From NCBI RefSeq assembly GCF_003265365.1, contig NZ_AUPM01000043.1, positions 1-59,415 on the forward strand: 59,415 nt of DNA, written 5' to 3'. Source of the DNA: Petrotoga sp. 9PW.55.5.1 (GTDB taxonomy: Bacteria > Thermotogota > Thermotogae > Petrotogales > Petrotogaceae). The notes under the pieces are model-generated. The model was not told the DNA's origin. It did no database searches and was given only the letters and a program-made list of their open reading frames with translations. This document shows positions 41,879 to 59,415 of the stretch, piece by piece. The position numbers and the translations under genes were made by a program. How positions within the stretch are numbered: position 1 is the stretch's first letter; the number at the start of each line of letters is the position of its first letter.

Positions 41879-41948
41879 TATGAAAATATTTTCTTGCTTG
41901 CAAGATGTTTTTAGTATTATTGAAATTTTTTTCATTATTTGGGAATAA
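41879..41948 (+). repeat. 70-bp block duplicated upstream of the two ABC operons, copy 1
   Basis: This block matches 52081-52150 at 68 of 70 positions. It ends 46 bases before the -35 box of the first ABC operon; the second copy ends 45 bases before its own. It is non-coding in both places. Confidence 0.85.
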
Positions 41949-41994
41949 ACAGTAATATTTTTATATAAATGCTTTTAATCAAATCTTATCTTAC

Positions 41995-42024
41995 TTGACA
42001 ATTATAGGTAATATCTATTATAAT
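41995..42024 (+). promoter_or_regulatory. Promoter of the first peptide-type ABC operon
   Basis: TTGACA (41995-42000), 18 bases, TATAAT (42019-42024). The spacer ATTATAGGTAATATCTAT is identical to that of the promoter at 52196, which suggests an operator inside it. The predicted 5' leader is about 220 bases and holds a short ORF. Confidence 0.82.
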
Positions 42025-42252: not shown

Positions 42253-44757
42253 ATGAAAAAAGCAACTGTTCTTTGCGTGATGTTGGTAGTATTACTTTCT
42301 GCGTTTGTTTTTGCAGAAAAAGGTCCTATGCCTGACAAGGTGTATTTTGATGTTAGGATGCAACAAGAAGTTGCGGTTCAAGATGTTGCTGCGGGAAATC
42401 TTGATATATATATGAATTCTGTTCCAGCAGCTATTATGAACGCTTTACCCCAGTCCATCTTGAATAATTTGGAGGTTTATTCTGTTCCATCTGGTTCGTG
42501 GTCCTTACTTTTTAACCCTGTTCCGAACGAACCCCCTTATACTGTGAAAGTTGGAGATAAAGAATATTTTAATCCATTGGCTATACAAGAAGTAAGATTT
42601 GCTATGAACTTTTTGATAAATAGACAGTATATTGTAGACGAGATTCAACAAGGTGCAGGTGGTCCAATGTTTACCATGGCAACTCCTGGTCAACCAGGTA
42701 CCCAGCCTTACGTAGATATCGGTGCTAAGATGGGGTTCACACCTGAAGGAAACCAGGAATTGGCTCTTGAAATGATTGAAAATGCGATGAGAGAAGCGGC
42801 CAATCTTCCTGAAAACCAAGGAAGGTTAATAAAACAAGGACAATGGTGGACGTTTGACGGAGAACCTGTAACGTTGAAATTCTTGATTCGTGTTGATGAT
42901 CCTGAAGGAAGATTAAGATCGGGAAGATACATTGCTGATCAGATAGAAAAAGCTGGGATAAAAGTAGAAAGATTGGAAAGGGATAGAAGTGCTATCACAA
43001 CAGCGTACTACTCAAATCCAGCTGATCTTGAATGGCATATTTATACTGAAGGTTGGGGTGCAGGAGCGACAAGAAAGTATTGGCATCATATCGTAAGTCA
43101 AATGTATGCTCCATGGTATGCCAATATGCCAGGTGGCGGAGACCCCGCTAATTGGAATTATGTTCAAGAAGAAATTGATTATTTAACTCAAAAGGTTTAT
43201 ACTGGTAACTTTTCTACTGAAGAAGAATATTGGGATTCTATTTTAAGAGCAACAGAATTAGGAATTGAAGATTCTGTAAGATTGTATATTTCATATCAGG
43301 ATGATTATTATGTAGCGAACAAAAATAATTACAATAGAAGAGTGGCCTATGGATTAGGTGATGGCTTAAATCAATGGTCTATTATAACCTCAGATACTAA
43401 AAATAGAGAAGTAAGGGCAACTCAATATTCTGCACAAGGTGTTTTATTTATGAGTGCATGGAATCCGGTAGGAACAGCTGGATTCAATGATGTTTTCTCC
43501 ATAAATGTCGCTTCTACCATGTACGACTATGGTATGTTCGAAAGTCCTGCTTCTGCTGATATCACACCCTCAAAGATTATTCCAAGATTAGATACTTTGG
43601 ATACTAAATTTGAGATGGATGAAGATGGAGAACTTGTCGGATTAATTCAGGTTCCTGAAGATGCCATTAAGTTTGATCCACACACCAAACAATGGGTTAA
43701 TGTTGGCTCTGGATTAACTTCTATAAGTGTTTGTACGTATGATATTGTATACGGTGTTTGGAATAATGGTGTTTCAGAAAGCTTGGCAGATTATATGTTT
43801 GCACCCGCTTATGCATGGGATCTTTCAGTTGACTCTGGAAGTGGTGATACAAGGTATGATGTAACTTATTCGACAAATACGTTGCCAGGATTAGAAGTTG
43901 AAGTTGCAAGAAAGCTTAACCCAGATGGTTCTATAACGGTATGGTTTAATTATAACTTCCCTGTTGATCTTATGTATCTTGCTTCATGGGGAGCACCGAG
44001 TTGGAATGTATCTGCTTCTGGTCACCCTGTGGGAGTTTCATGGGAAATAGTCGAAGCCTTAACAAGATTAGTCGAGAATGGAGGAGCTTCTGGCAGACAG
44101 TATACTTTCTCTGCAACAGCAGCTGGTGGTAATGTTTATGAAGTAGATGTTATAGAACCGGTATGTGTTGGTGATATAAAAGTTGAATTGCAAAAAATGA
44201 TAAATGAAAATTATGTCCCAGTTTATATAAAAGATTATGTGACCCCTAAAGAAGCTGTTGAAAGATATCAAAAAACACTTGATTTTGTTAACAAACACAA
44301 CCATGCTTATATAGGAAATGGGCCATTTTTCATGGAAAGATACGATCCTGTTGGAAGATTTGTTGAATTAACAGCAGTAAGAGATGAAAGATATCCTTTT
44401 GAACGTGGTTATTGGAATGAATATTTTGAGACCACAAGATTGAATGTTGATGGAATAGATTTAGCTTTTGCAGCTCTTGCAGTTCTTGATTTACCAGTGT
44501 ATATAAATGTATCTGAAGTTCTTTATCCTTACGATACAGCTACACCTGCAGAAGGAGGAAACGTTGAAGTTACATTGATAGCTCCCGATAATCAATGGAC
44601 TTTTAAAGCAGAACCTGAAGCACCTGGTTTGTTCTTGGCAACAATTCCATCGAGTGTTCTTTCGACTTTGGAACCAGGTACTTATTCAATAGTTGTTACA
44701 GCAAGAGCTGAAGGAGCTATTCCTTCAACATATTCCACTTCAATAATTGTTTATTAA
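42253..44757 (+). CDS. Peptide-type ABC transporter substrate-binding protein, 834 residues
   Basis: An exported solute-binding protein of the SBP_bac_5 (OppA/DppA) class. The signal peptide is 1-21 (ending VFA). It contains the family's AVRFAMNFLINRQYIVDEI-like block (residues about 113-135). At 834 residues it is about 250 longer than usual. The extra length includes a C-terminal beta-sandwich (about 750-834, GGNVEVTLIAPDNQWTFKAEP to the end), like those on archaeal and Thermotogota binding proteins. The ligand may be peptides or oligosaccharides. It is first in an SBP-permease-permease-ATPase-ATPase operon. ATG follows AAAGGAGGGGTATT. Confidence 0.87.
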   Translation: MKKATVLCVMLVVLLSAFVFAEKGPMPDKVYFDVRMQQEVAVQDVAAGNLDIYMNSVPAAIMNALPQSILNNLEVYSVPSGSWSLLFNPVPNEPPYTVKVGDKEYFNPLAIQEVRFAMNFLINRQYIVDEIQQGAGGPMFTMATPGQPGTQPYVDIGAKMGFTPEGNQELALEMIENAMREAANLPENQGRLIKQGQWWTFDGEPVTLKFLIRVDDPEGRLRSGRYIADQIEKAGIKVERLERDRSAITTAYYSNPADLEWHIYTEGWGAGATRKYWHHIVSQMYAPWYANMPGGGDPANWNYVQEEIDYLTQKVYTGNFSTEEEYWDSILRATELGIEDSVRLYISYQDDYYVANKNNYNRRVAYGLGDGLNQWSIITSDTKNREVRATQYSAQGVLFMSAWNPVGTAGFNDVFSINVASTMYDYGMFESPASADITPSKIIPRLDTLDTKFEMDEDGELVGLIQVPEDAIKFDPHTKQWVNVGSGLTSISVCTYDIVYGVWNNGVSESLADYMFAPAYAWDLSVDSGSGDTRYDVTYSTNTLPGLEVEVARKLNPDGSITVWFNYNFPVDLMYLASWGAPSWNVSASGHPVGVSWEIVEALTRLVENGGASGRQYTFSATAAGGNVYEVDVIEPVCVGDIKVELQKMINENYVPVYIKDYVTPKEAVERYQKTLDFVNKHNHAYIGNGPFFMERYDPVGRFVELTAVRDERYPFERGYWNEYFETTRLNVDGIDLAFAALAVLDLPVYINVSEVLYPYDTATPAEGGNVEVTLIAPDNQWTFKAEPEAPGLFLATIPSSVLSTLEPGTYSIVVTARAEGAIPSTYSTSIIVY

Positions 44758-44783
44758 AACCAATATTTTTTAGAAACATATTT

Positions 44784-44815
44784 TATGGGCATCCCCTTTT
44801 ATGGGGACGCCCATA
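44784..44815 (+). terminator. Hairpin between binding-protein and permease genes (attenuator-like)
   Basis: TATGGGC (44784-44790) pairs with GCCCATA (44809-44815), with inner CCCC/GGGG. The following T tract is weak (TTTAT), so it probably reduces read-through or protects upstream mRNA rather than ending transcription. A similar arrangement occurs at 56340. Confidence 0.6.
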
Positions 44816-44863
44816 TTTATCGAACTTTTACGAAGTTCATACACAAAGAGGTGGTTGAATTAT

Positions 44864-45913
44864 ATGTATTGGAGATACGCTATAAAAAGAATTCTTATGG
44901 GAATACTGATTTATGTAATCATTATTTTTATATATTCTATCCTTTTCAATACAGTAATGGAAGAAACTCTGAATGGTCAGATAATAGAGATAGTTAATGG
45001 AGAAATGCTTAAAATGTCACAAGTTGGGACGGATCCAGAATATTTGTTACAATATAGACAAACAAGGATCCAAGAGTTACGAACTTTGTATCATTTAGAT
45101 GAGCCTCTTCCCACCAGAATTTTTTGGCGAGCTGTAAATACATTAACTTTTAATTACGGTAACTCGACAATAATGAGGTCTTTCAAAGGAGAAACAGACG
45201 TTCTTGCCATAGTTTTAGAAAGAATTCCTTATACTTTGCTTCTTTTTACCTTCGCTATATTAATTGATATAGTTGTAGGAGTATCTCTCGGTATAAAAAA
45301 AGCACAAAGAGCGGGAAAATTAATGGATCAAAGCACTTCGATTATAACAATGGTAGTGTATGGTTTGCCAAGTTGGTGGTTTGGAATGGTGATGATAATG
45401 TTGTTTGCTTTTACCATTCCTATTTTCCCTTCTGGTGGATTCAACAGTGTTCCGCCTCCTGATACCTTTTTGGCAAGGGTTGTTGATACTTTGTACCATC
45501 TGGCTCTTCCTGTATTAACTTTGGTTTTCATAGGATTTTGGGGAAGGGCATATTTAACAAGAAACATTGTTTTGGGGAATTTACAAGAAGATTTTATAAT
45601 GTCTGCAAGAGCAAGAGGTATACCTGAAAGGTCTGTTTTGTATGGTCATGCTATGAGAACTTCTGCGCCTCCTATTCTCACTATGTCTTTATTGTCTTTG
45701 TTGGCTTCCTTTAATGGAGCCCTTGTATTTGAAGGTATATTCAGTTGGCCAGGCATGGGTAGTTTATATTGGGCTGCTGTTCAACAAAACGATATTCCTG
45801 TTTTATTGGGTAACCTTTCAATAACAACAGCTATTTATATAGCGGGTATTGTAGTTTTGGACTTAATCTATGGATTTCTTGATCCAAGAATAAAAGTAGG
45901 TGGAAAGGCGTGA
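44864..45913 (+). CDS. Peptide-type ABC transporter permease (DppB/OppB-like)
   Basis: An inner-membrane permease of 349 residues. The N-terminal WRYAIKRILMGILIYVIIIF helix starts the DppB pattern. The EAA-loop region reads DFIMSARARGIPERSVLYGHAMRTSAPPILT, where the ATPase docks, and the end LIYGFLDPRIKV is typical. I chose ATG 44864, about nine bases after AGAGGTGG; an ATG at 44801 lies inside the upstream hairpin. It overlaps the next gene by four bases (GTGA). Confidence 0.9.
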   Translation: MYWRYAIKRILMGILIYVIIIFIYSILFNTVMEETLNGQIIEIVNGEMLKMSQVGTDPEYLLQYRQTRIQELRTLYHLDEPLPTRIFWRAVNTLTFNYGNSTIMRSFKGETDVLAIVLERIPYTLLLFTFAILIDIVVGVSLGIKKAQRAGKLMDQSTSIITMVVYGLPSWWFGMVMIMLFAFTIPIFPSGGFNSVPPPDTFLARVVDTLYHLALPVLTLVFIGFWGRAYLTRNIVLGNLQEDFIMSARARGIPERSVLYGHAMRTSAPPILTMSLLSLLASFNGALVFEGIFSWPGMGSLYWAAVQQNDIPVLLGNLSITTAIYIAGIVVLDLIYGFLDPRIKVGGKA

Positions 45914-47301
45914 GAAATAATAAATCAACTAAAGGACCAATTCAAGATTTTTGGAATGAATTTAAGCAATATAAGTATGGTATTGTAGGACTTATTTTTC
46001 TCATAATTTTTATCATTTTGGTAATTTTTGAAAGCTTTTTGATTCCTTTTCCAGAAGCATCAAGTAGATGGAGAGACATCACTTACTGGGAAGATAACCC
46101 AAGAAGTGTTCCTCCTGTTTGGATTAATTTTTTCAGTTCAAAGGACTATGCACCTACTATTTACTTTGAAGATTTGGAATTTACAGAAAATCAACTTTCA
46201 CCAACCATTACAACTATGAATTATATTTTAGAATATGATTATGATTACGATGTTCCTCCTGTTGATATTATTTTGAGAGGTAGATTTGAAGGGAACTTTA
46301 CTGCTAACATCGTTGTCGAAAGACCTGATGGGGCTACTATAAATTTAGTTAATAAAAATTTTTCTGCACCTACTATGAGAGATTTTCGTATTCCTTTGGT
46401 AAATGAATCACAAAACAATGTAAGAAATTTTGTGAGAAGATATCAACCCAATGTTCCACAAAATATTAATACTTTTAGGATTTTATTTTCGCAAGCCGAC
46501 GAAAATATCATATCAAACCCACAGCCTTTAAAGGGGACATATAAATTTAATATAAACTTGATTAAAACTTCTCCCAATACTGTTATCGAAGAACCAAGGT
46601 TTGTTGTTTCCGGTAGTGTTTCTGGTTTATTAGGAACAGATAACTCTAAAAGAGATATTTGGAGCGGTTTAGTTGCTGGATTAAAATGGGCTTTGTTTAT
46701 AGGTCTTCTTACTTCTGCTATTTCTGTGGGAGTGGGAGTGATTTATGGTACTATATCTGCCTATTATGGGGGTATAGTCGATTCGATTATGCAAAGAATA
46801 TGGGAAGTATTTATAAATATCCCGCTGTTACCTGTTTTAATTGTATTGTCCGCTATATTTCAACCAAGCATTTGGACATTGATAACTATGATGTGCCTAT
46901 TTTTTTGGGTTGGGCCTGTTAAGACTGTTAGAAGCATGGCTTTACAAATAAAAGAAGAAACTTTTGTAGAATCGGCAAAGGCTTTAGGTGCCTCTAATTT
47001 CAGAATAATTTTCAAACATATAGTTCCAATGCTCATACCTTATGCCTTTGCAAGCATGGCGTTAAATGTACCGAGCGCTATAGTATACGAAGCTACTGTT
47101 AGTTTATTAGGATTAGGAGATGCTTCAGTAGTAACATGGGGACAGATTCTACACGATGCTTTTAGTGGTGGTGCTGTTATAAGTGGTTATTGGTGGTGGA
47201 TAATCCCACCAGGAATAGCAATTGCCCTTGTTGGAATGACATTCGCATTTTTAGGTTTTGCTATGGATACTATCCTAAATCCAAAATTAAGAACGAGGTA
47301 G
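45910..47301 (+). CDS. Peptide-type ABC transporter permease (DppC/OppC-like) with a large extracytoplasmic insert
   Basis: A 463-residue permease, about 160 longer than usual. TM1 is at about 24-46. A hydrophilic insert of roughly 185 residues (about 50-235), including YDYDYDVPPVDIILRG, precedes the standard LGTDNSKRDIWSGL and the remaining helices. The EAA loop ETFVESAKALGASNFRIIFKHIVP docks the ATPase. The insert should face outward and may contact the binding protein. GTG 45910 follows AGGTGGAAAGGC. Confidence 0.88.
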   Translation: MRNNKSTKGPIQDFWNEFKQYKYGIVGLIFLIIFIILVIFESFLIPFPEASSRWRDITYWEDNPRSVPPVWINFFSSKDYAPTIYFEDLEFTENQLSPTITTMNYILEYDYDYDVPPVDIILRGRFEGNFTANIVVERPDGATINLVNKNFSAPTMRDFRIPLVNESQNNVRNFVRRYQPNVPQNINTFRILFSQADENIISNPQPLKGTYKFNINLIKTSPNTVIEEPRFVVSGSVSGLLGTDNSKRDIWSGLVAGLKWALFIGLLTSAISVGVGVIYGTISAYYGGIVDSIMQRIWEVFINIPLLPVLIVLSAIFQPSIWTLITMMCLFFWVGPVKTVRSMALQIKEETFVESAKALGASNFRIIFKHIVPMLIPYAFASMALNVPSAIVYEATVSLLGLGDASVVTWGQILHDAFSGGAVISGYWWWIIPPGIAIALVGMTFAFLGFAMDTILNPKLRTR

Positions 47302-47307
47302 ATAATA

Positions 47308-48282
47308 ATGAGCGAAGTTTTAAATGTAAAAAATTTAAAAGTTTACTATTATACACGTAAAGGAGTAGTTAAGGGATTAGATGATGTAAGTTTTTCTCTT
47401 AAGCAAGGAGAAACATTAGGTTTGGTTGGAGAATCCGGTTGTGGTAAAACTACTTTGGGAATGGGTTTATTAAGAATGCCTAATCCTCCTGGAAAGATTG
47501 TAGGAGGAGAAATTATTATAGATAATGAAAACATTGTTCCTTTAAAGGAAAATGAAATAAGGAAAAGAATTAGATGGAATAAGATTTCTATGGTTTTTCA
47601 AGGGGCAATGAACAGTTTAACCCCTGTTTATACTATAAAAAAACAGATGGTGGAAACACTCCAGAATCATAAGGAAATTGAAGAGAAAGAAGCGATTAAT
47701 ATTATAAAAAAATATCTTAATCATGTGGGCTTGTCTGAAGATATTTTAAGAAGATATCCTCACGAACTTTCTGGTGGAATGAAACAACGTGTTGTAATTG
47801 CTATGGCTTTGTTTTTGGAACCCAAAATAATCATTGCTGATGAGCCTACAACAGCCTTAGATGTTGTTGTTCAAGCACAAATAATAAATTTATTGAAAAG
47901 TTTAAAAAAAGAACTTAATCTTTCTTTTATTTTTATAACACATGATTTAGCTACAGAAGCCGAGGTTTCTGATAGAATAATGGTTATGTATGCCGGGAAA
48001 ACTGCTGAAATAGGAACAAATTACCAAATTTATGGCCCTCAAGGTCCTGCACATCCATATACCAAAGGTTTGTTATCTTCTACTCCCAGATTGCATCAAA
48101 AAGTAGATGTGTTAGATTTTATACCGGGTGTGCCACCTGATCTTCTAAATCCTCCAACCGGATGCAGATTCCACCTCCGTTGTCCTGTTGCTTTTGACAA
48201 ATGTAAAATGAAAGAACCACCTTTAAAAGAAATAGAACCTGAGCATTTTGTTGCTTGTTGGAGGTGTTACGAAGATGAATGA
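47308..48282 (+). CDS. Peptide-type ABC transporter ATP-binding protein (DppD/OppD-like)
   Basis: A 324-residue ATPase. Walker [10 protein letters not shown] is at 41-49, the Q-loop in VFQGAMNSL, the signature LSGGMKQR near 157, Walker B IIIADEPTTALD and the H-loop THD follow. The C-terminal oligopeptide extension has the cysteine cluster GCRFHLRCPVAFDKC with a later Cys, a likely [4Fe-4S] or zinc site of this subfamily. ATG follows GAGGTAGATAATA. It overlaps the next ATPase gene by eight bases. Confidence 0.93.
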   Translation: MSEVLNVKNLKVYYYTRKGVVKGLDDVSFSLKQGETLGLVGESGCGKTTLGMGLLRMPNPPGKIVGGEIIIDNENIVPLKENEIRKRIRWNKISMVFQGAMNSLTPVYTIKKQMVETLQNHKEIEEKEAINIIKKYLNHVGLSEDILRRYPHELSGGMKQRVVIAMALFLEPKIIIADEPTTALDVVVQAQIINLLKSLKKELNLSFIFITHDLATEAEVSDRIMVMYAGKTAEIGTNYQIYGPQGPAHPYTKGLLSSTPRLHQKVDVLDFIPGVPPDLLNPPTGCRFHLRCPVAFDKCKMKEPPLKEIEPEHFVACWRCYEDE

Positions 48283-49306
48283 TGAAATAATATTGAGTGT
48301 AAAGAATTTAAAAAAATGGTTTCCTCTTCGTAGAACTATTGAAGAATTTTTTTCTGGCAATAGAAGATGGGTGAAAGCAGTCGATGGAATAAGTTTTGAT
48401 GTAAAAAGGGGAGAGATATTTTCTCTTATAGGAGAGTCTGGATGTGGTAAAACAACGACAGGAAGATTAATAATGAAGTTGGAAGAAGCAACAGATGGAG
48501 AAATAATTTTCAAAAATGAAGATATAACTTCTTTTACGAGTGCGGAAAAAGTTAAAACATATAAAGAGCATGTTCAAATGGTTTTCCAGGATCCGTATGC
48601 CTCAATGAATCCAAGGTTTAGGGTAAGGGATGTTTTATCCGAACCTTTGATAATTCATAAAAAGGTCCACACATTACAAGAAAGAGAAGATTTGGTAAGA
48701 AGAGCACTTGAAGAAGTAAAGCTCACCCCTGTGGAAGAGTTTATGGATAGATATCCTCACATGTTAAGTGGAGGACAAAGGCAGAGAGTTGCAACTGCAA
48801 GGACTTTAATATTATCACCTGAATTAATAGTGGCAGATGAACCGGTTTCTATGATAGATTTATCAACACGTGCTGAGATTTTACATATGATGAAAGAAGT
48901 CCAAAAAGATTTACAATTAACATATATTTATATAACTCATGATTTATCTACGGCAAGATACTTTTGTGATAGAATAGCCGTAATGTATCTTGGAAGAATA
49001 GTCGAACTGGGTAATGCAGATGAAATAATTGAAAATCCATTACATCCTTACACTAAAGCTCTTATAGAAGCGGTACCAGAACCTTTACCTGGAAAAGAAA
49101 ATAAGATTAAAGAGATTCCAATAAAAGGTGAAGTACCATCTGCTGCAAATATACCTAAAGGTTGTAGATTTCATCCGAGATGTATTTATGCCGAGCCAAA
49201 ATGCTATGAAGGTGTAGAAGATCCTGATCTTGTAGAAGATTCAAATGAACATTTTGTTGCTTGTTATAGGTATAAAGAAATTAATAATGTAGCTGAAAAT
49301 GCTTAG
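48275..49306 (+). CDS. Peptide-type ABC transporter ATP-binding protein (DppF/OppF-like)
   Basis: The second ATPase, 343 residues. Walker [10 protein letters not shown] is at 53-61, VFQDPYASMNPR is the Q-loop, LSGGQRQRV the signature, ELIVADEPVSMIDLS the Walker B. The C-terminal GCRFHPRC with later cysteines matches the family extension. ATG 48275 is chosen because GGAGGTG lies about eight bases upstream; the longer frame opens inside dppD. It is the last gene of the operon, before a strong terminator. Confidence 0.93.
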   Translation: MNDEIILSVKNLKKWFPLRRTIEEFFSGNRRWVKAVDGISFDVKRGEIFSLIGESGCGKTTTGRLIMKLEEATDGEIIFKNEDITSFTSAEKVKTYKEHVQMVFQDPYASMNPRFRVRDVLSEPLIIHKKVHTLQEREDLVRRALEEVKLTPVEEFMDRYPHMLSGGQRQRVATARTLILSPELIVADEPVSMIDLSTRAEILHMMKEVQKDLQLTYIYITHDLSTARYFCDRIAVMYLGRIVELGNADEIIENPLHPYTKALIEAVPEPLPGKENKIKEIPIKGEVPSAANIPKGCRFHPRCIYAEPKCYEGVEDPDLVEDSNEHFVACYRYKEINNVAENA

Positions 49307-49394: not shown

Positions 49395-49606
49395 AAAATT
49401 CCCCTCTTGAGAGGGGTGTATGCGACGTTCTTTGTCGCAGCCGGGGTGTGGTAAATATTAATTTGCTTTTAGCAAATTAAAGAGTGACTACCCCGTCTGC
49501 AGCATAAAACGCTGCATCCACCCCTTCAAGGAAGGGGAATAGAACCGACTACCCCGTCTAGCAGCATAAAACGCTGCATCCACCCCTTCGAGGAAGGGGA
49601 ATTTTA
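49395..49606. repeat. Dispersed hairpin repeat block
   Basis: In order: a CCCCTC-TT-GAGGGG palindrome, the hairpin TGCGAC-GTTCTTT-GTCGCA (49421-49439), the AATTTGCTTTTAGCAAATT spacer, then two 60-bp units of the TGCAGC hairpin type (from 49489), the second with one inserted A. The remaining bases to 49850 show no gene; a TATAAT at 49851-49856 may serve the epimerase gene. Confidence 0.85.
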
Positions 49607-49920
49607 CTTCAAAATCAAAACCATAGACGAATTAAAAGAAATTTTGAAATAAAAGTATAAGACATCTTAAATTGACCGTTGATTCCCCTTTTTGAAGTGG
49701 AATGGCGGAGACCTCTTGCTCTCTTTTGGTACAAGTGCCGAGAAGGATATGATATCATTTCAAAGACATCTAATTATGATCCAACCAATTATTTTCACGG
49801 ACATTTAATATGATCTAATGCGTAACTGTTTTTTTCAAGTAAAATAATGTTATAATCAAAATATAAAAATAATAACAAAAAAGTCACAAATCATCTTTTT
49901 CTAAAATGAAGGAGGCAATC

Positions 49921-52080: not shown

Positions 52081-52150
52081 TATGAAAATATTTTCTTGCT
52101 TGCATGATATTTTTAGTATTATTGAAATTTTTTTCATTATTTGGGAATAA
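52081..52150 (+). repeat. 70-bp block duplicated upstream of the two ABC operons, copy 2
   Basis: It matches 41879-41948 at 68 of 70 positions and ends 45 bases before the -35 box of the second ABC operon. Confidence 0.85.
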
Positions 52151-52195
52151 TTCTCAATAATTTGCTTAGATTCCTGTTAATTATATTTTTCTCAC

Positions 52196-52225
52196 TTGAC
52201 AATTATAGGTAATATCTATTATAAT
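52196..52225 (+). promoter_or_regulatory. Promoter of the second peptide-type ABC operon
   Basis: TTGACA (52196-52201), 18 bases, TATAAT (52220-52225). The spacer is identical to that of the promoter at 41995. The start codon is only about 42 bases downstream. Confidence 0.85.
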
Positions 52226-52267
52226 ATAATTTAGGAATTAAGGATATTTGATTATGAGGTGACTATA

Positions 52268-53323
52268 TTGGATAATATAATCTTAGATGTCAGACATTTA
52301 GGAACCCGTTTTCCTGTTGCTGAAGGTGAAATCAAAGCTGTTAATGATATTTCATTCACTCTGAGTAACAACGAAACTTTAGGAATTGTTGGAGAAACTG
52401 GGTCTGGTAAGAGTGTATCAATGAAATCAGTGATGGGGATGATAAAAAGCCCAGGTTACCTTACAAAAGAAACACAGATTTTATTCAAAACTGACGAGTT
52501 TAGTAAAAATGGGCAAAAAGAGTTCGTTGATCTAGCAAAATTAAAACCTAAAGATTTCACCAGAATTCGAGGGAAACACATAGGTATGGTTTTTCAAGAT
52601 CCTATGTCTTCACTAAATCCAATGTTCACCATAGCTGATCAAATGATAGAAACTATAGTTTTCCATCAAAATGTGTCATTAGTAGAAGCACGAGAAAGAG
52701 CTATCAAGCTTTTAGAAGATGTTGGAATTCCAAATCCCGAAGAAAGAATAAACGATTACCCATTTCAACTTTCAGGTGGGCAAAGACAAAGAGTTATAAT
52801 TGCAATAGGGTTATCTTGTAATCCTGAGATATTAATTGCAGATGAACCAACTACTGCTTTAGACGTAACGATTCAAGCGCAGATATTAGAATTAATGAAA
52901 GATTTGCAAGAAAAATACGACATGGGTATGATATACATTACGCATGATCTTTCTGTTATTGCAGAAGTTGCTGACAAAGTAATAGTAATGTACGGTGGTA
53001 ATCAAATGGAAATGACGGATATTTATAGATTGTTTGAGAAACCGTTTCACCCATATACTCATGCTTTACTTTCTTGTATTCCAAGACACGACATAAAAAA
53101 GGATCAGTTGAATCCTATAAAAGGGCAACCCCCTGTAATGTTAGATCCTCCACCACTTTGTCCTTTCTTACCAAGATGTCCTAAGGCTACTGATAAGTGT
53201 AAGAAAGATTGGCCAGAGTGGAGAGAGATTGAAGAAAATCACTATGTAAGATGTTTTAACCCTGTAAATGAACCATCTCCTGCAAATCTAGCAGACATAG
53301 TTGATAAAAAGGAGGCTATTTGA
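52268..53323 (+). CDS. Peptide-type ABC transporter ATP-binding protein (DppD/OppD-like)
   Basis: A 351-residue ATPase. Walker A GETGSGKSV is at 42-50, the Q-loop in VFQDPMSSLNP, signature LSGGQRQRV, Walker B ILIADEPTTALD. The C-terminal extension has CPFLPRCPKATDKC with a later Cys. TTG 52268 is preferred, five bases after GAGGTGA; GTG 52259 overlaps that site. In this operon the ATPase genes come first, before the binding protein and permeases, the reverse of the first operon. Confidence 0.93.
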   Translation: MDNIILDVRHLGTRFPVAEGEIKAVNDISFTLSNNETLGIVGETGSGKSVSMKSVMGMIKSPGYLTKETQILFKTDEFSKNGQKEFVDLAKLKPKDFTRIRGKHIGMVFQDPMSSLNPMFTIADQMIETIVFHQNVSLVEARERAIKLLEDVGIPNPEERINDYPFQLSGGQRQRVIIAIGLSCNPEILIADEPTTALDVTIQAQILELMKDLQEKYDMGMIYITHDLSVIAEVADKVIVMYGGNQMEMTDIYRLFEKPFHPYTHALLSCIPRHDIKKDQLNPIKGQPPVMLDPPPLCPFLPRCPKATDKCKKDWPEWREIEENHYVRCFNPVNEPSPANLADIVDKKEAI

Positions 53324-54531
53324 TGCTTTTAAAGGTTCGCAATATTAAAAAATACTTTCCTATTAAACAGGGGTTCCTAATTAATAGAACCGTAGGATAC
53401 ATTAAAGCAGTTGATGGGGTTGATTTTGAACTTGACATAAACGAAACCTACGGTTTGGTGGGTGAATCAGGTTGTGGAAAAACTACAATTGGTAAAACTA
53501 TTTTAAGATTAGAAGATCCCACTGCTGGAAATATTTTTTTAGATGGAGAGGAAACCTCTCACTATTTTATGAGTAAAAGAGAAGGGGCAAAACATTTAGA
53601 AAGAGAATATCTAGAAAAAGCTGAAAAACTTGAGAAAGAACTGGGTAGTAAAGAAAAAGTTCTTGAAAGTTTAGAAGAAGAAGAAAGAAGATATATTAAA
53701 TATTATTTTGATAATGGAAAAGATAAATTCTTTGATTATATGTTTAAAGATATTGATAAAAAAAGAGCAGAGTTCAGAAGAAACGTACAAATAGTATTTC
53801 AAGATCCCACTTCTTCTTTAAATCCTAGAATGACGGTGGGACAAACATTAATTGAGCCCCTACTATTTCATAAAATTGCTAAGAACAAAATAGAAGCTAA
53901 AAAAATAGCCCTTGATATATTGCAAAAAGTTGGATTAAAACCTTATCACGCCGACAGATATCCTCATCAATTTTCTGGAGGTCAAAGACAAAGAGTAGCT
54001 GTAGCTAGAGCAATAATCTTAAATCCAAAATTAATTATTTTGGACGAACCTACCTCTGCTTTAGACGTATCTGTTCAAGCACAAATAATTAACTTATTAA
54101 AAAATTTGCAAGAAGAGTTTAACGTAGGATATATTTTTATTTCTCATGATTTGGGTGTTGTAAGGTTTATCTCCAATCATGTTGGAGTAATGTACTTAGG
54201 AAGAGTTGTTGAATTTGGAGAAGGATCACAAATATTTGACAGCACTCTTCATCCGTATTCACAAGCTTTATTGAATTCAGCTCCACTTCCAGATCCTAGA
54301 AAAAAAAGAGATAGAAAAAAATTTCTAGTAAAGGGACAAGTTCCAAGCCCTGTTAACAGACCAAAAGGATGTTTCTTTAACCCTCGATGTCCATTTGTAA
54401 TGGATATTTGCAAAGAAGAGTATCCAGGATATTACAAAACAAATGAAAATCATTCTGTTGCTTGTTTTTTATACGAAGAAGGAATAAATAAAGGGTTATC
54501 TAGGGAAAAAGAGAGTAAATTAGTTAAATAA
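53323..54531 (+). CDS. Peptide-type ABC transporter ATP-binding protein (DppF/OppF-like) with a helical insert
   Basis: A 402-residue ATPase, about 70 longer than its paralogue at 48275. Walker [10 protein letters not shown] is at 47-55. A charged, coiled-coil-like insert spans about 80-150 ([20 protein letters not shown] and on) between the Walker A strand and the Q-loop [12 protein letters not shown]. The signature FSGGQRQRV and Walker [13 protein letters not shown] are normal. The C-terminus has CFFNPRCP with later cysteines. ATG 53323 overlaps the preceding stop by one base, with GGAGG seven bases upstream. Confidence 0.92.
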
Positions 54532-54553
54532 CTTAAAAAAAGGAGGGATTTAC

Positions 54554-56314
54554 ATGAAAAAGTTGTTGGTTTTACTGGTTGTATTATCAAGCACTTTAGC
54601 ACTTTTCGCTCAGGCTGCATACAATCCTGAGTGGTTAATTGCTGATGTAGAAGGTGGACAAAGAGGTGGAACACTATATCTTGGAACCACTGCTGGTCCT
54701 AAAACATTAAACACATATTGGGCCCAAGAAACTTCTTCTTCAGTTATTATAAACCAAGGAGATGTATCGCTTTTAAGTAGTGATTTTTATGGTCAACCTA
54801 CTCAACCTGGTTTGGCTAAAGAATGGGGAGTAGAGGCAACTGAAGATGGAGGTACATTGTATTGGTTTGTTATGAGAGAAGGAGTGAGATGGTCCGATGG
54901 TCATCCATTAACCGTAGAAGATGTTATTTTCACATGGGAAAAGATTATAGTTCCCGATCTTACTGCAGATGGTAACGATGTGTATATGGATGCTGAGGAT
55001 AACCTTCCAGAACTAACCGTAGAAGGCAATAAGATAATGTTCAAATATCCAACAAGATTCCGCTTTGGATTCGAAACGGTTGGTGGATTTGCCATAATGC
55101 CTAAACATGTTCTAGAAGATAAAGTAACAGATGCTGAAACCTTCCAATCCACTTGGACCGTTGAACAGGTTGATCAACTAGTTGTAGCAGGTCCGTTCAA
55201 AGTTACAGAATATACTGAAGGTGTAAGAGTTGTATTGGAAAGAAATCCTTACTACTTTGAAAAATCCAAAGATGGAGTACAACTACCATATTTAGATAAA
55301 ATTGTATTCGAGATAGTTTCTGATAGTAACGTTGAAAGGTTGAGATTTGAAGCTGGAGAAATAGACATGATGGGTGTTCAGGCTAAAGATTTCCCATCTT
55401 TAAGAGCACAAGCTGATCAAAAAGGATGGAACGTTATAATTGGTCCTGCAACTGCAGGTTCTAACTTTGTTGCCTTTAACTTTAACACCGCAGATCCTGT
55501 GAAGAGAGAATGGTTTAGGAATGATAACTTTAGAAAAGCAATTGCTTACGCTTTTGATAAACAAACTATCATCGATACACTATACAACGGTTTAGGAGAA
55601 CCTACTTATGGTCCAAGAACAAGTTCTTCTGCTTTTTACAATCCTGAAATTGAGACCTTAGGTTACAGATATTCATTGGTAACTGCTCAAAGATTACTAA
55701 GAGAAGCAGGTTTTACATGGAATGATAAAGGCCAGTTAGTAGATTGGTACGGAAACGTAGTAGAATTTGAATTGAATACCAACGGCGAAAATGTTATGAG
55801 AAATGAAATTTCAATCATATTAGTTGATGCATTAGGAAAATTAGGAATCAAAGTAAATTACAGACCCGTTCAATTCAACGCGTTGGTTCAAAGAATGTAT
55901 TCAGAAAACTGGGATGCAATCATCATAGGTTTAGTTGGTGGAGATGATCCTGGATGGGGTACCAATGTTTGGTTGTTAGATGGTGGACTTCATTTCTGGA
56001 ATTGGTCACCTGAAGTCATGGATTGGGTAGATCCTGATGAGTATTGGGTACATCCAGCTGAAAAGAGAATAGATGAAATCATGAGGATACAGAGATCTAT
56101 TTTAGACCAAGACGAACTTCAAAAACTTTGGGATGAATGGCAGATGTTGGTTGCAGAAAATCAAATCCTTGTTTACACAATATCTCAAAACTATTTGAAC
56201 ATGCATAAAAATACTTTACACCTTTATCCAGTAGAAAAATATGGAACTATTAATCCTTACGGATACTCTTACTCTCCTGGTTTATGGAAGATTGAGTACG
56301 CCTGGAAAGAATAA
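54554..56314 (+). CDS. Peptide-type ABC transporter substrate-binding protein, 586 residues
   Basis: A secreted SBP_bac_5 protein with signal peptide 1-20 (ending LFAQA). The family signature region reads WFVMREGVRWSDGHPLTVEDV (about 97-117), followed by FKVTEYTEGVRVVLERNPYYF and FRKAIAYAFDKQTI. Length is normal, unlike the 834-residue paralogue. No cysteine follows the signal, so it is not a classical lipoprotein. The ligand is unknown. ATG follows AAAAAGGAGGGATTTAC. Confidence 0.93.
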   Translation: MKKLLVLLVVLSSTLALFAQAAYNPEWLIADVEGGQRGGTLYLGTTAGPKTLNTYWAQETSSSVIINQGDVSLLSSDFYGQPTQPGLAKEWGVEATEDGGTLYWFVMREGVRWSDGHPLTVEDVIFTWEKIIVPDLTADGNDVYMDAEDNLPELTVEGNKIMFKYPTRFRFGFETVGGFAIMPKHVLEDKVTDAETFQSTWTVEQVDQLVVAGPFKVTEYTEGVRVVLERNPYYFEKSKDGVQLPYLDKIVFEIVSDSNVERLRFEAGEIDMMGVQAKDFPSLRAQADQKGWNVIIGPATAGSNFVAFNFNTADPVKREWFRNDNFRKAIAYAFDKQTIIDTLYNGLGEPTYGPRTSSSAFYNPEIETLGYRYSLVTAQRLLREAGFTWNDKGQLVDWYGNVVEFELNTNGENVMRNEISIILVDALGKLGIKVNYRPVQFNALVQRMYSENWDAIIIGLVGGDDPGWGTNVWLLDGGLHFWNWSPEVMDWVDPDEYWVHPAEKRIDEIMRIQRSILDQDELQKLWDEWQMLVAENQILVYTISQNYLNMHKNTLHLYPVEKYGTINPYGYSYSPGLWKIEYAWKE

Positions 56315-56339
56315 TAATTCTCCTTTTACTTAGGAAAAG

Positions 56340-56366
56340 GGCGGAAGGGAAACCTTCTGCCTTTTT
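56340..56366 (+). terminator. Hairpin with T tract between binding-protein and permease genes
   Basis: GGCGGAAGG (56340-56348), tetraloop GAAA, CCTTCTGCC (56353-56361), five T. It has the form of an intrinsic terminator, yet the two permease genes follow with no clear promoter, so partial termination is likely. Confidence 0.8.
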
Positions 56367-56391
56367 AAAATTAAATTGAGGAGGTTTAGTT

Positions 56392-57366
56392 GTGCTCAAA
56401 TATATTATTAGAAGAATTATTCTGGCTATTCCTGTTTTGTTAGGTGTATCGGTTATTTCTTTTTTTGTTATGCAACTAGCTCCAGGTGATTTTCTGGATA
56501 CTTACCGTATAAATCCCAATATTTCTCGTGAAAAGATTCAAGAATTAGAAACCTTATACGGTCTAGATAAAGATCCAGTAACTCAATATTTTCTGTGGTT
56601 GGGAAACGTATTAAAAGGAAACTGGGGATATTCATTTGTATATAAAATAGATGTATGGCAAGTTATGTTGAGAAGATTAGAAGCGACACTTCTTTTAGGA
56701 GTCACTACTTTTATTTTTACCTGGGGAATAGGAATTCCATTAGGTATTACTGCTGCTTTACATCAGTACAAATTCACTGATCAAACTCTTTCAACTATTG
56801 GACTTATTGGTATTTCAATTCCAAATTTCTTTTTTGCACTTCTTTGGTTAATGTTTGCTGCAAACACTGGAATCTTTCCAATTGGAGGGATGCTATCCCG
56901 GGAGTTTGCCAACATGCCATGGTATGCACAAATAGGTGACTTTTTTTGGCATGTTGCAGGTCCCGTAATAACATTAGGAACAGCATCGCTTGCAGGTACT
57001 ATGCGTATAATGAGGGGACAGATGTTGGATGAAATGAACCAAGACTACGCAGAGTTTGCCAGAGCAAAAGGAATGCCTTCAGATGTTGTTATTTACAAAC
57101 ATACCCTTAGGAATGCTATTAACCCTGTAATAACTTCTCTTGGATTCAGCTTATCGGCCATTTTAGGAGGAGCTTTAATAACTGAGTATGTTTTTTCTTG
57201 GCCAGGTCTTGGAACATTGATGAGAGATGCAATCTTTCAACAAGATATTTATTTAGTAATGGCTAATTTACTTCTTCAAGGTATATTATTGATTATTGGT
57301 AACTTGTTGGCAGACATAATGTTAGCAGCTTCTGATCCTCGAGTTAGACTGAGAATGAGCGCCTGA
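56392..57366 (+). CDS. Peptide-type ABC transporter permease (DppB/OppB-like)
   Basis: A 324-residue six-helix permease. The start LKYIIRRIILAIPVLLGVSVISFF is the DppB N-terminus, and the EAA loop is QDYAEFARAKGMPSDVVIYKHTLRNAINPVIT. GTG 56392 lies eight bases after GAGGAGG. It pairs with the DppC-type gene 17 bases downstream. Confidence 0.94.
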   Translation: MLKYIIRRIILAIPVLLGVSVISFFVMQLAPGDFLDTYRINPNISREKIQELETLYGLDKDPVTQYFLWLGNVLKGNWGYSFVYKIDVWQVMLRRLEATLLLGVTTFIFTWGIGIPLGITAALHQYKFTDQTLSTIGLIGISIPNFFFALLWLMFAANTGIFPIGGMLSREFANMPWYAQIGDFFWHVAGPVITLGTASLAGTMRIMRGQMLDEMNQDYAEFARAKGMPSDVVIYKHTLRNAINPVITSLGFSLSAILGGALITEYVFSWPGLGTLMRDAIFQQDIYLVMANLLLQGILLIIGNLLADIMLAASDPRVRLRMSA

Positions 57367-57383
57367 ATTGGAGGGATTTTTAA

Positions 57384-59060
57384 GTGAAAGGCAAAGATAA
57401 AAATAACACCAAAAATAACACACAAAAAATCATGAATGAAGAAGATCTTTTTGAGAGAGAATTTATGTCCACACCTGCACTAATATGGAGAGCTCTAAGA
57501 AGGCATAAATTAGGTATGATATCTTTGTGGGTATTGATCATTCTTTATTTATTATCGATATTTGCAGATTTTGTTTCTCCAATGAATCCTTTTAACAATC
57601 ATATTCAATACCGATTTGCTCCGCCTTCCAATATCTATAGAGTTGATCCAATAACAGGTAACAGAATAGGTCCCCACACTTATATTTATATGATTCAACG
57701 TGACCCTATTACTTATCAAAGTGAATATGTAGAAGCAACTCATTTTGATATAATTAGAGCTAGAGATCCTGAAACAGGTGAAATAGTAACCTTTGAATTA
57801 GGGGAGTATAATCCAGCTTACGATGCAACTGTATCGGATATTACGTATACCTTAAAAAATGTTGTTATGGCTAAAACAGCAAATGGAGAATATATAGAAC
57901 TTGCCACTAATTATAAAAATGATCAAAGTTTACTTCCCATATCTTATTTTACAAACGATCAATTTAGAGATGAAGATATTTCATTTAAGGACGGACTTTT
58001 AGATACTAATTTTTCAAAGTTTTTAAAAGGAGAACCTATTCTTTCTATAAATGACGATAGGTCTGTAACAATTAATAGTTATAAAAGTGATTATAGATAT
58101 GCAACAAAAATTAGAAATCAAGAAATTGTTAGTATAGATACGTTAACAACTTTAGAAGAAATCAACGTATATTTTGATTTTTTACCTGTTGTTTTAACTC
58201 CATCAGACTTGGAAGCAGTTAATATAAAAAATTATAAAATAGAATTTTTTATAAATTCTTGGGAGTATAAACTCTTAGGCCTTTTCCCTTCCAATTTGCA
58301 TTTATTTGGTGTAGAAAAACCCAAATTACCTGCAATTTCAGATTACTCTTCAAACGATGGAATTTTTTATGTGTGGGGTGCTGACCAGTATGGCAGGGAC
58401 ATTTTTAGTAGGATATTTTTTGCTTCTAGAATCTCCCTTTCTATAGGATTAGTTGGGATATTACTAACTTTTACTATTGGTATATTTTTGGGTGGATTAG
58501 CAGGATACTTCGGAGGATGGGTTGATGAAGTAACGATGAGATTTACTGAAATATTGATGTCGATTCCTAGTCTTTATCTTATACTAACACTCAGTGCTGT
58601 TCTACCAACCCGTATTTCTCCAGAAATACGGTATCTATTGATAGTGGTTATATTATCGTTTATAGGATGGCCAGGCATGACTAGGGTTATAAGAGGTATG
58701 ACTATGGGTCTGAAACAAACAGAGTTTGTACAGGCGGCAATAGCTTTGGGATACCCTCCAAGAAAAGTCATTTGGAATCACCTATTACCAAACACTTATA
58801 CTTATGTTATTGTATCGGCTACATTATCAATTCCTTCTTATATTTTAGGTGAAGCTAGTCTTAGTTTCTTGGGAGTAGGGATAACTGAACCCGGTGCCTC
58901 CTGGGGATTGATGCTTTCACAAGCACAAGATATTGAGGTTTTAACTAATTATCCTTGGGTATTAATTCCAGGTATCTTTATAATAGTTACAGTACTTGCT
59001 TTTAACTTATTTGGAGATGCCATAAGAGACGCATTAGATCCAAGGTCATTGGGATTGTAA
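57384..59060 (+). CDS. Peptide-type ABC transporter permease (DppC/OppC-like) with a very large extracytoplasmic insert
   Basis: At 558 residues this permease is nearly twice the usual length. A basic cytosolic N-terminus precedes TM1 (about 45-65). Then comes a hydrophilic segment of roughly 260 residues (about 70-330) before the conserved WGADQYGRDIFSRIFFASRISLS and the remaining five helices. The EAA loop is TEFVQAAIALGYPPRKVIWNHLLPN. The insert position is the same as in the 463-residue paralogue at 45910. GTG 57384 follows GGAGGGATTTTTAA. It ends the operon; no terminator is seen. Confidence 0.9.
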   Translation: MKGKDKNNTKNNTQKIMNEEDLFEREFMSTPALIWRALRRHKLGMISLWVLIILYLLSIFADFVSPMNPFNNHIQYRFAPPSNIYRVDPITGNRIGPHTYIYMIQRDPITYQSEYVEATHFDIIRARDPETGEIVTFELGEYNPAYDATVSDITYTLKNVVMAKTANGEYIELATNYKNDQSLLPISYFTNDQFRDEDISFKDGLLDTNFSKFLKGEPILSINDDRSVTINSYKSDYRYATKIRNQEIVSIDTLTTLEEINVYFDFLPVVLTPSDLEAVNIKNYKIEFFINSWEYKLLGLFPSNLHLFGVEKPKLPAISDYSSNDGIFYVWGADQYGRDIFSRIFFASRISLSIGLVGILLTFTIGIFLGGLAGYFGGWVDEVTMRFTEILMSIPSLYLILTLSAVLPTRISPEIRYLLIVVILSFIGWPGMTRVIRGMTMGLKQTEFVQAAIALGYPPRKVIWNHLLPNTYTYVIVSATLSIPSYILGEASLSFLGVGITEPGASWGLMLSQAQDIEVLTNYPWVLIPGIFIIVTVLAFNLFGDAIRDALDPRSLGL

Positions 59061-59140: not shown

Positions 59141-59415
59141 GCTTTAATTCCCCTCTTGAGAGGTTTGTTGATTTTTATTCCCCTTTTTGAAGGGGAATTA
59201 GCTTAAATTCCCCTCTTGAGAGGTTTGTTGATTTTTATTCCCCTTTTTGAAGGGGTGGCTGTGACGCTTTTTGTCACAGACGGGGTAGTTGCTTTTGAAT
59301 TGGATTTTCAATTTGCTAAAAGCAAATTAAAGAACGACTACCCCGTCTGCAGCACAAAACGCTGCATCCACCCCTTCACAGAAGGGGAATAAAAATGACT
59401 ACCCCGTCTGCAGCA
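59141..59415. repeat. Dispersed hairpin repeat block at the contig end
   Basis: Two tandem 60-bp copies (59141-59200 and 59201-59260, differing at a few bases) of CCCCTC-TTGAGAGG and CCCCTTTTTGAAGGGG hairpins. Then the hairpin TGTGAC-GCTTTTT-GTCACA (59260-59278), GACGGGGTAGT, the A/T-rich spacer with AATTTGCTAAAAGCAAATT, ACTACCCCGTC, and the TGCAGC-hairpin units from 59337, the last cut by the window edge. Confidence 0.88.

Follow-up and report, generated by a model that had tools for sequence, protein, structure and literature searches.

In the 59,415 nucleotides of Petrotoga sp. 9PW.55.5.1 analysed here (the window), two importer operons, A and B, begin with closely similar promoter regions, referred to as P_A and P_B. 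We consider it probable that both regions belong to one regulon, in which a regulator bound at a palindrome would act from a fixed distance across phased repeats, and that the pattern of identity between them is a scar of recombination. The shared start region would then result from both operons lying in one family-wide regulon and from a foreign copy of one operon having been patched with the promoter of the other. The Petrotogaceae are fermenting bacteria of oil reservoirs. An operator conserved across the family's amino-acid and peptide genes, set in a rigid promoter geometry and without ArgR or Lrp, would amount to a regulon that is testable at once, and its missing regulator could be fished out with one DNA fragment. 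The case also suggests that, where duplicate promoters are unevenly alike, the pattern can record past recombination instead of marking where proteins bind.

The preliminary description had reported that the two regions align with a difference of one base in length, and that a near-identical distal block of about 70 bases is followed by a diverged middle and then by an identical promoter and spacer. All of this was recovered. A search of the 2.08-Mb genome (G000 below) with the 146-base region returned only P_A and P_B as full copies, 86% identical over 146 bases (E = 8e-43), a similarity far beyond chance; the third match consisted of 25 bases and was the palindrome alone. Weak matches of the same query in relatives were mostly the palindrome or AT-rich noise and were set aside. 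When the alignment was split by segment, P_A and P_B were identical at 38/40 positions in the distal part, 24/24 in the palindrome part, 32/51 in the middle, 30/30 from -35 to -10 and 8/25 just downstream of -10. The gap between palindrome and -35 is 60 bp in P_A and 59 bp in P_B, and the one-base difference falls in the middle. Both cores are of the sigma-A (sigma-70) type (TTGACA, 17-18 bp, TATAAT), with exact hexamers in P_A, P_B and most relatives. The two flanking ABC operons are both complete, each encoding an oligopeptide-type (Opp/Dpp) importer with an SBP_bac_5 binding protein, two permeases and two ATPases. Coordinates are collected in the table.

Features of the two operons and their promoter regions in the window
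Feature	Coordinates	Strand	Description
P_A	41879..42024	+	Operon A promoter region (evident mosaic)
P_A distal operator copy	41881..41894	+	Candidate, TGAAAATATTTTCT, one mismatch, 40 bp upstream of main operator
P_A main operator	41921..41934	+	Predicted, TGAAATTTTTTTCA; similarity to donor-like genus begins here
P_A phased repeats	41946..41981	+	TAAACA / TAAATG / TAATCA at -49, -29, -19 from the -35 hexamer
P_A core	41995..42024	+	-35 TTGACA, 18-bp spacer, -10 TATAAT; same as P_B
Operon A	42253..49306	+	834-aa SBP_bac_5 binding protein, two permeases, two ATPases
P_B	52081..52225	+	Operon B promoter region, resident, directly after rarA
P_B distal operator copy	52083..52096	+	Candidate, TGAAAATATTTTCT, one mismatch
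P_B main operator	52123..52136	+	Predicted, TGAAATTTTTTTCA
P_B phased repeats	52148..52183	+	TAATTC / TAATTT / AGATTC / TAATTA at -48, -38, -28, -18 from the -35 hexamer
P_B core	52196..52225	+	-35 TTGACA, 18-bp spacer, -10 TATAAT
Operon B	52259..59060	+	Two ATPases, 586-aa SBP_bac_5 binding protein, two permeases

Within the distal block, the palindrome TGAAA-W4-TTTCA occurs twice, 40 bp apart. A second, often imperfect copy also lies 38-40 bp upstream in P_B of G002-G005, G008, G009 and G011 and in P_A of G007, and this weak upstream operator is degenerate or absent in P_A of the sister species. Genomes of the genus carry 18-22 exact copies of the palindrome each, and all 19 Petrotogaceae counted carry 10-32. 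A composition-matched control, for which the pattern was reversed, gives 0-8 per Petrotogaceae genome, and in the sister family most genomes hold 0-2 copies of the palindrome. Among the 38 sites examined in G000 and G002, 35 are intergenic and one is at the very start of an open reading frame. A literature search for a description of this motif found none: the Petrotoga mobilis motif ATTATA-N18-GTCAA (PMC5217627) is an ordinary promoter, and the Thermotoga maritima regulon paper (PMC3750489) covers sugar regulons. These distributions give good support to the palindrome as a real, conserved regulatory element common to operons A and B. Two directly abutting palindromes (28 bp, centres 14 bp apart) were also seen at the promoters of the aminotransferase divergent from glyA and of an acetokinase-family gene (L070, L086, L122, L131 and L167).

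Most genes beside the palindrome are concerned with amino acids and peptides, and in several genera the site is retained at orthologous genes. The neighbours include 2,4-diaminopentanoate dehydrogenase (ord), two glutamate dehydrogenases (gdh), threonine dehydrogenase (tdh), glyA with its divergent aminotransferase, methylmalonyl-CoA mutase, a sodium-pumping decarboxylase, an Asp/Glu racemase, argJ, prephenate dehydratase, and Trp-, Liv- and peptide-binding proteins. Other genera add arginine deiminase, histidase, urocanase, glutamine synthetase, alanine dehydrogenase, a class V aminotransferase and a CoA transferase. Carbon genes adjoin the palindrome as well, namely FBPase, the acetokinase-family gene and phosphofructokinase (named by its sequence start). 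At argJ, ord and methylmalonyl-CoA mutase, the palindrome lies downstream of the likely -10, between the probable promoter and the gene; this suggests repression there, so the regulatory mode would not be uniform. The earlier proposal that the two operons are controlled together is well supported by the palindrome common to both, its excess throughout the family and its amino-acid and peptide neighbours, which together make a strong case that P_A and P_B are co-regulated within one amino-acid/peptide regulon.

The palindrome also keeps its place. In all 15 aligned P_A and P_B promoters, from five genera, its centre lies 65-67 bases before the -35 hexamer, and the distance is constant even where the intervening sequence has fully diverged. 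In P_A, P_B and several unrelated promoters, the gap from palindrome to -35 is 58-60 bp; the same distance is found upstream of FBPase, the acetokinase-family gene and two aminotransferase genes, one of them divergent from glyA. The palindrome ends 57-59 bases from -35 at 18 promoters, against 0.7 expected and a maximum of 3 in 100 shuffles; pairs of the word TAAWYG spaced by 10, 20 or 30 bp occur 40 times, against 0.28 in shuffles; and all 24 TAAWYG words within 70 bp of -35 in palindrome promoters sit at -8 or -9 modulo 10, although these figures overstate independence because orthologous promoters and abutting double sites were counted; the architecture is present in no fewer than five unrelated transcription units. 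The middles of P_A and P_B in the window keep to this phase, as the positions in the table show. For counting arrays, the exact pattern TAATCGNCTNTAATCG proved too strict (0-2 per genome) and was dropped.

These repeats change the picture of the second element. The preliminary description had taken the distal block and the spacer to be two regulator-binding elements, and had held the middle to be unconserved. The block stands, through its palindrome, and there is evidence for a second element; the core spacer does not, as the P_A and P_B versions of it are unlike in G002, G003, G004 and G011. The statement about the middle did not survive comparison with the sister species, in which it is the better conserved part; it keeps its length in all relatives compared and it holds the phased repeats. 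The second element is likely to be the phased TAAWYG repeats inside this diverged middle.

We propose that a dimeric or higher-order amino-acid/peptide regulator would bind TGAAA-W4-TTTCA, with the centre of its main site 66-67 bp upstream of the -35 hexamer and a weaker site 40 bp beyond. From a fixed distance and helical face, it would act on RNA polymerase at an ordinary TTGACA-18-TATAAT promoter; with the start placed about 7 bases after -10, we infer activation from about -102, presumably in response to an amino-acid or peptide signal. The 10-bp-phased repeats may bind the polymerase alpha subunits or another protein. Operon A would have been swapped in from another Petrotogaceae genus, and P_A would then have become a mosaic of the donor middle with a P_B-type block and core.

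For the array alone, there is a reading that is compatible with this proposal and to which we give somewhat less than an even chance: the phased repeats may be an extended UP element for RNA polymerase alpha that raises basal strength, leaving the palindrome as the sole regulator site. The repeats are indeed A/T-rich and helically phased up to -35, and similar arrays occur without the palindrome before groES and other genes, in phase relative to -35 in the case of the G003 groES gene. On the other hand, the array reaches about 60 bp upstream of -35, and the specificity of the TAAT(C/T)G word exceeds that of known UP elements. OmpR/PhoB-type boxes, BldC and UP elements all present repeats at one-turn intervals up to -35; the Petrotogaceae promoters differ in that TAATYG recurs every 10 bp exactly and is coupled to a palindrome at a fixed distance. 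A more elaborate and rather unlikely version of the mechanism has a regulator, from a family without a known role in amino-acid control, nucleating at the palindrome and spreading head to tail along the 10-bp repeats to polymerase at -35. If true, the Petrotogaceae would have an activation mechanism of fixed geometry that is particular to them and serves in place of ArgR and Lrp.

The palindrome-free TAATCG arrays with a 10-bp period before groES were seen in L139 (G011), L141 (G003) and L143 (G004), and the one in G003 runs up to -35 with the phase of the regulon promoters. More such arrays lie at promoters unlinked to amino acids (L136, L137, L142, L144 and L145), near an antiporter-like gene, a LacI-type regulator and a WrbA-like gene.

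Known amino-acid regulators were considered as candidates for the binding protein. The ARG box, TGAAT-N4-ATTCA, is a 14-bp AT-rich palindrome that starts with TGAA and has its half-sites positioned as in TGAAA-W4-TTTCA. A divergent ArgR, whose site would differ from the ARG box at one symmetric position, is an improbable candidate, in favour of which stands the presence of argJ, arginine deiminase and ornithine breakdown in the regulon. As in the ArgR/AhrC regulon, the targets cover both arginine biosynthesis and breakdown; unlike in it, position 5 of the half-site is A rather than T, and the targets extend far beyond arginine. The ARG box itself was not found at the main sites of P_A and P_B, which read TGAAA-TTTT-TTTCA in the window and in all aligned relatives. 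No credible ArgR was detected in 41 relatives: the DNA-binding domain PF01316 was found in 0/41 at E<=0.001, and the whole-protein model TIGR01529 gave nothing above cut-off (best E 0.005), while T. maritima, the positive control, was detected in both searches.

The site of FL11 of Pyrococcus is TGAAA-W3-TTTCA, and the Petrotogaceae site is one base longer. FL11 belongs to the Lrp/AsnC (feast/famine) proteins and is a master regulator of amino-acid and nitrogen genes (PMC3584215), but searches of 21 Petrotogaceae genomes for the AsnC-type effector domain PF01037 found none, with the controls detected. IclR group 2 (KdgR-like) operators are AT-rich palindromes with GAAA/TTTC half-sites, and only group 2 motifs are reported for Thermotogales (PMC8222616); the Petrotogaceae palindrome has similar half-sites with a different spacing between them. 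The IclR domain PF01614 is absent from G000, G002, G006, G008-G010, the other genomes of that genus-level group (g6) and most of the family, though the motif abounds there. ArgR, Lrp/AsnC and IclR were therefore rejected as general regulators, since all or most Petrotogaceae lack these proteins. We also set aside an ECF sigma factor and a weak HTH_19 protein encoded beside methylmalonyl-CoA mutase, as neither is beside the site in all genera examined and the promoters are of the sigma-A type.

Two further placements were recorded. The ECF sigma factor gene is divergent from glutamate dehydrogenase, with the palindrome between them (L074 1885-2445 in G002 and L090 1903-2496 in G000). A SorC-type regulator gene in G033 (L175 564-1517) has a TGAAAAATATTTCA site 13 bp upstream, which may be a chance occurrence because G033 belongs to the sister family and has 8 sites in all.

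Turning to the origin of the two regions, operon A is 88.8% identical at the nucleotide level to its counterpart in G011, a member of another genus, over 7494 bp, and 74-75% identical to that of its genus mates, whereas operon B and rarA are 77-79% identical to all relatives compared. The similarity of operon A to G011 sets in at position 41921, the very first base of the palindrome. In G002-G005 and G011, the gene order is epimerase, rarA, P_B, operon B, P_A, operon A, with hflK upstream wherever the sequence covers it; in G000, unlike in these genomes, operon A lies between hflK and the epimerase gene. A search of the G000 genome for a second copy of the operon A binding protein found none. 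Judged by these identities and positions, operon A has passed between Petrotogaceae genera by exchange and now occupies a new position.

That operon A is relocated and foreign, and that block and core are near-identical, would fit a recent duplication carried along with the moved operon, with no regulatory meaning and the palindrome an incidental AT-rich word. We regard this as extremely doubtful, as the palindrome is strongly over-represented, lies mostly between genes, keeps to a single functional theme and is fixed in its spacing across genera.

Short intergenic repeats (GACTACCCCGTCTGCAGCA... and CCCCTTC...GAAGGGG) occur in the window at 49400-49700 and 59150-59415, on both sides of the epimerase-rarA-operon B segment and at the contig end, and may be where the rearrangement that relocated operon A took place. 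An extra permease gene resembling those of operon A (60-64% identity) comes after operon A in G002 (L035 18703-19632), G005 (L038 17375-18313), G001 (L039 3580-4518) and G007 (L043 17789-18727); operon A in the window is not followed by it.

The preliminary description had read the uneven identity as the trace of bound proteins and had named even divergence after a recent duplication as the opposite case; the pattern found matches neither an even duplication nor pure selection. If bound proteins had kept the distal block and the core spacer while the middle drifted, the conservation of the palindrome part throughout the family would be accounted for, but the sister genomes show the reverse of the G000 pattern: between their own P_A and P_B, the core matches at 20-23/30 positions in G002, G003, G004 and G011, while in G002-G004 the palindrome part matches at 21-24/24 and the middle at 42-45/50. 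Moreover, the bases between the two palindromes are near-identical between P_A and P_B in G000 and not in other genomes. Pure selection is, on this comparison, very improbable.

The identity pattern in G000 is best explained as a recombination scar and not as a footprint of selection. The middle of P_A matches P_A of G011 at 45/51 positions, against 32/51 for P_B of its own genome, whereas its core is 30/30 identical to P_B of G000, 25/30 to the sister P_B, 22/30 to P_A of G011 and 19/30 to P_A of G003. P_A of G000 is evidently a mosaic, with a donor-type middle set between a distal block and a core that match the resident P_B. Because this core resembles the sister P_B, it would have moved from P_B to P_A. 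It counts against the mosaic that the two P_B-like patches around the donor middle need two short exchanges or one patchy one, and the exact number of exchanges in P_A is one that we infer. A related event is seen in G005, where the cores of P_A and P_B match because P_B carries a core of the P_A type (28/29 to its own P_A, 22/30 to P_B of G004). Taken with the mosaic in G000, this makes short exchanges between P_A and P_B the likeliest cause of the uneven identity. The G005 P_B region (L038 2726-3031) lies upstream of the ATPase gene B_ATPD and contains, besides the P_A-type core, a leader of the P_A type and extra sequence.
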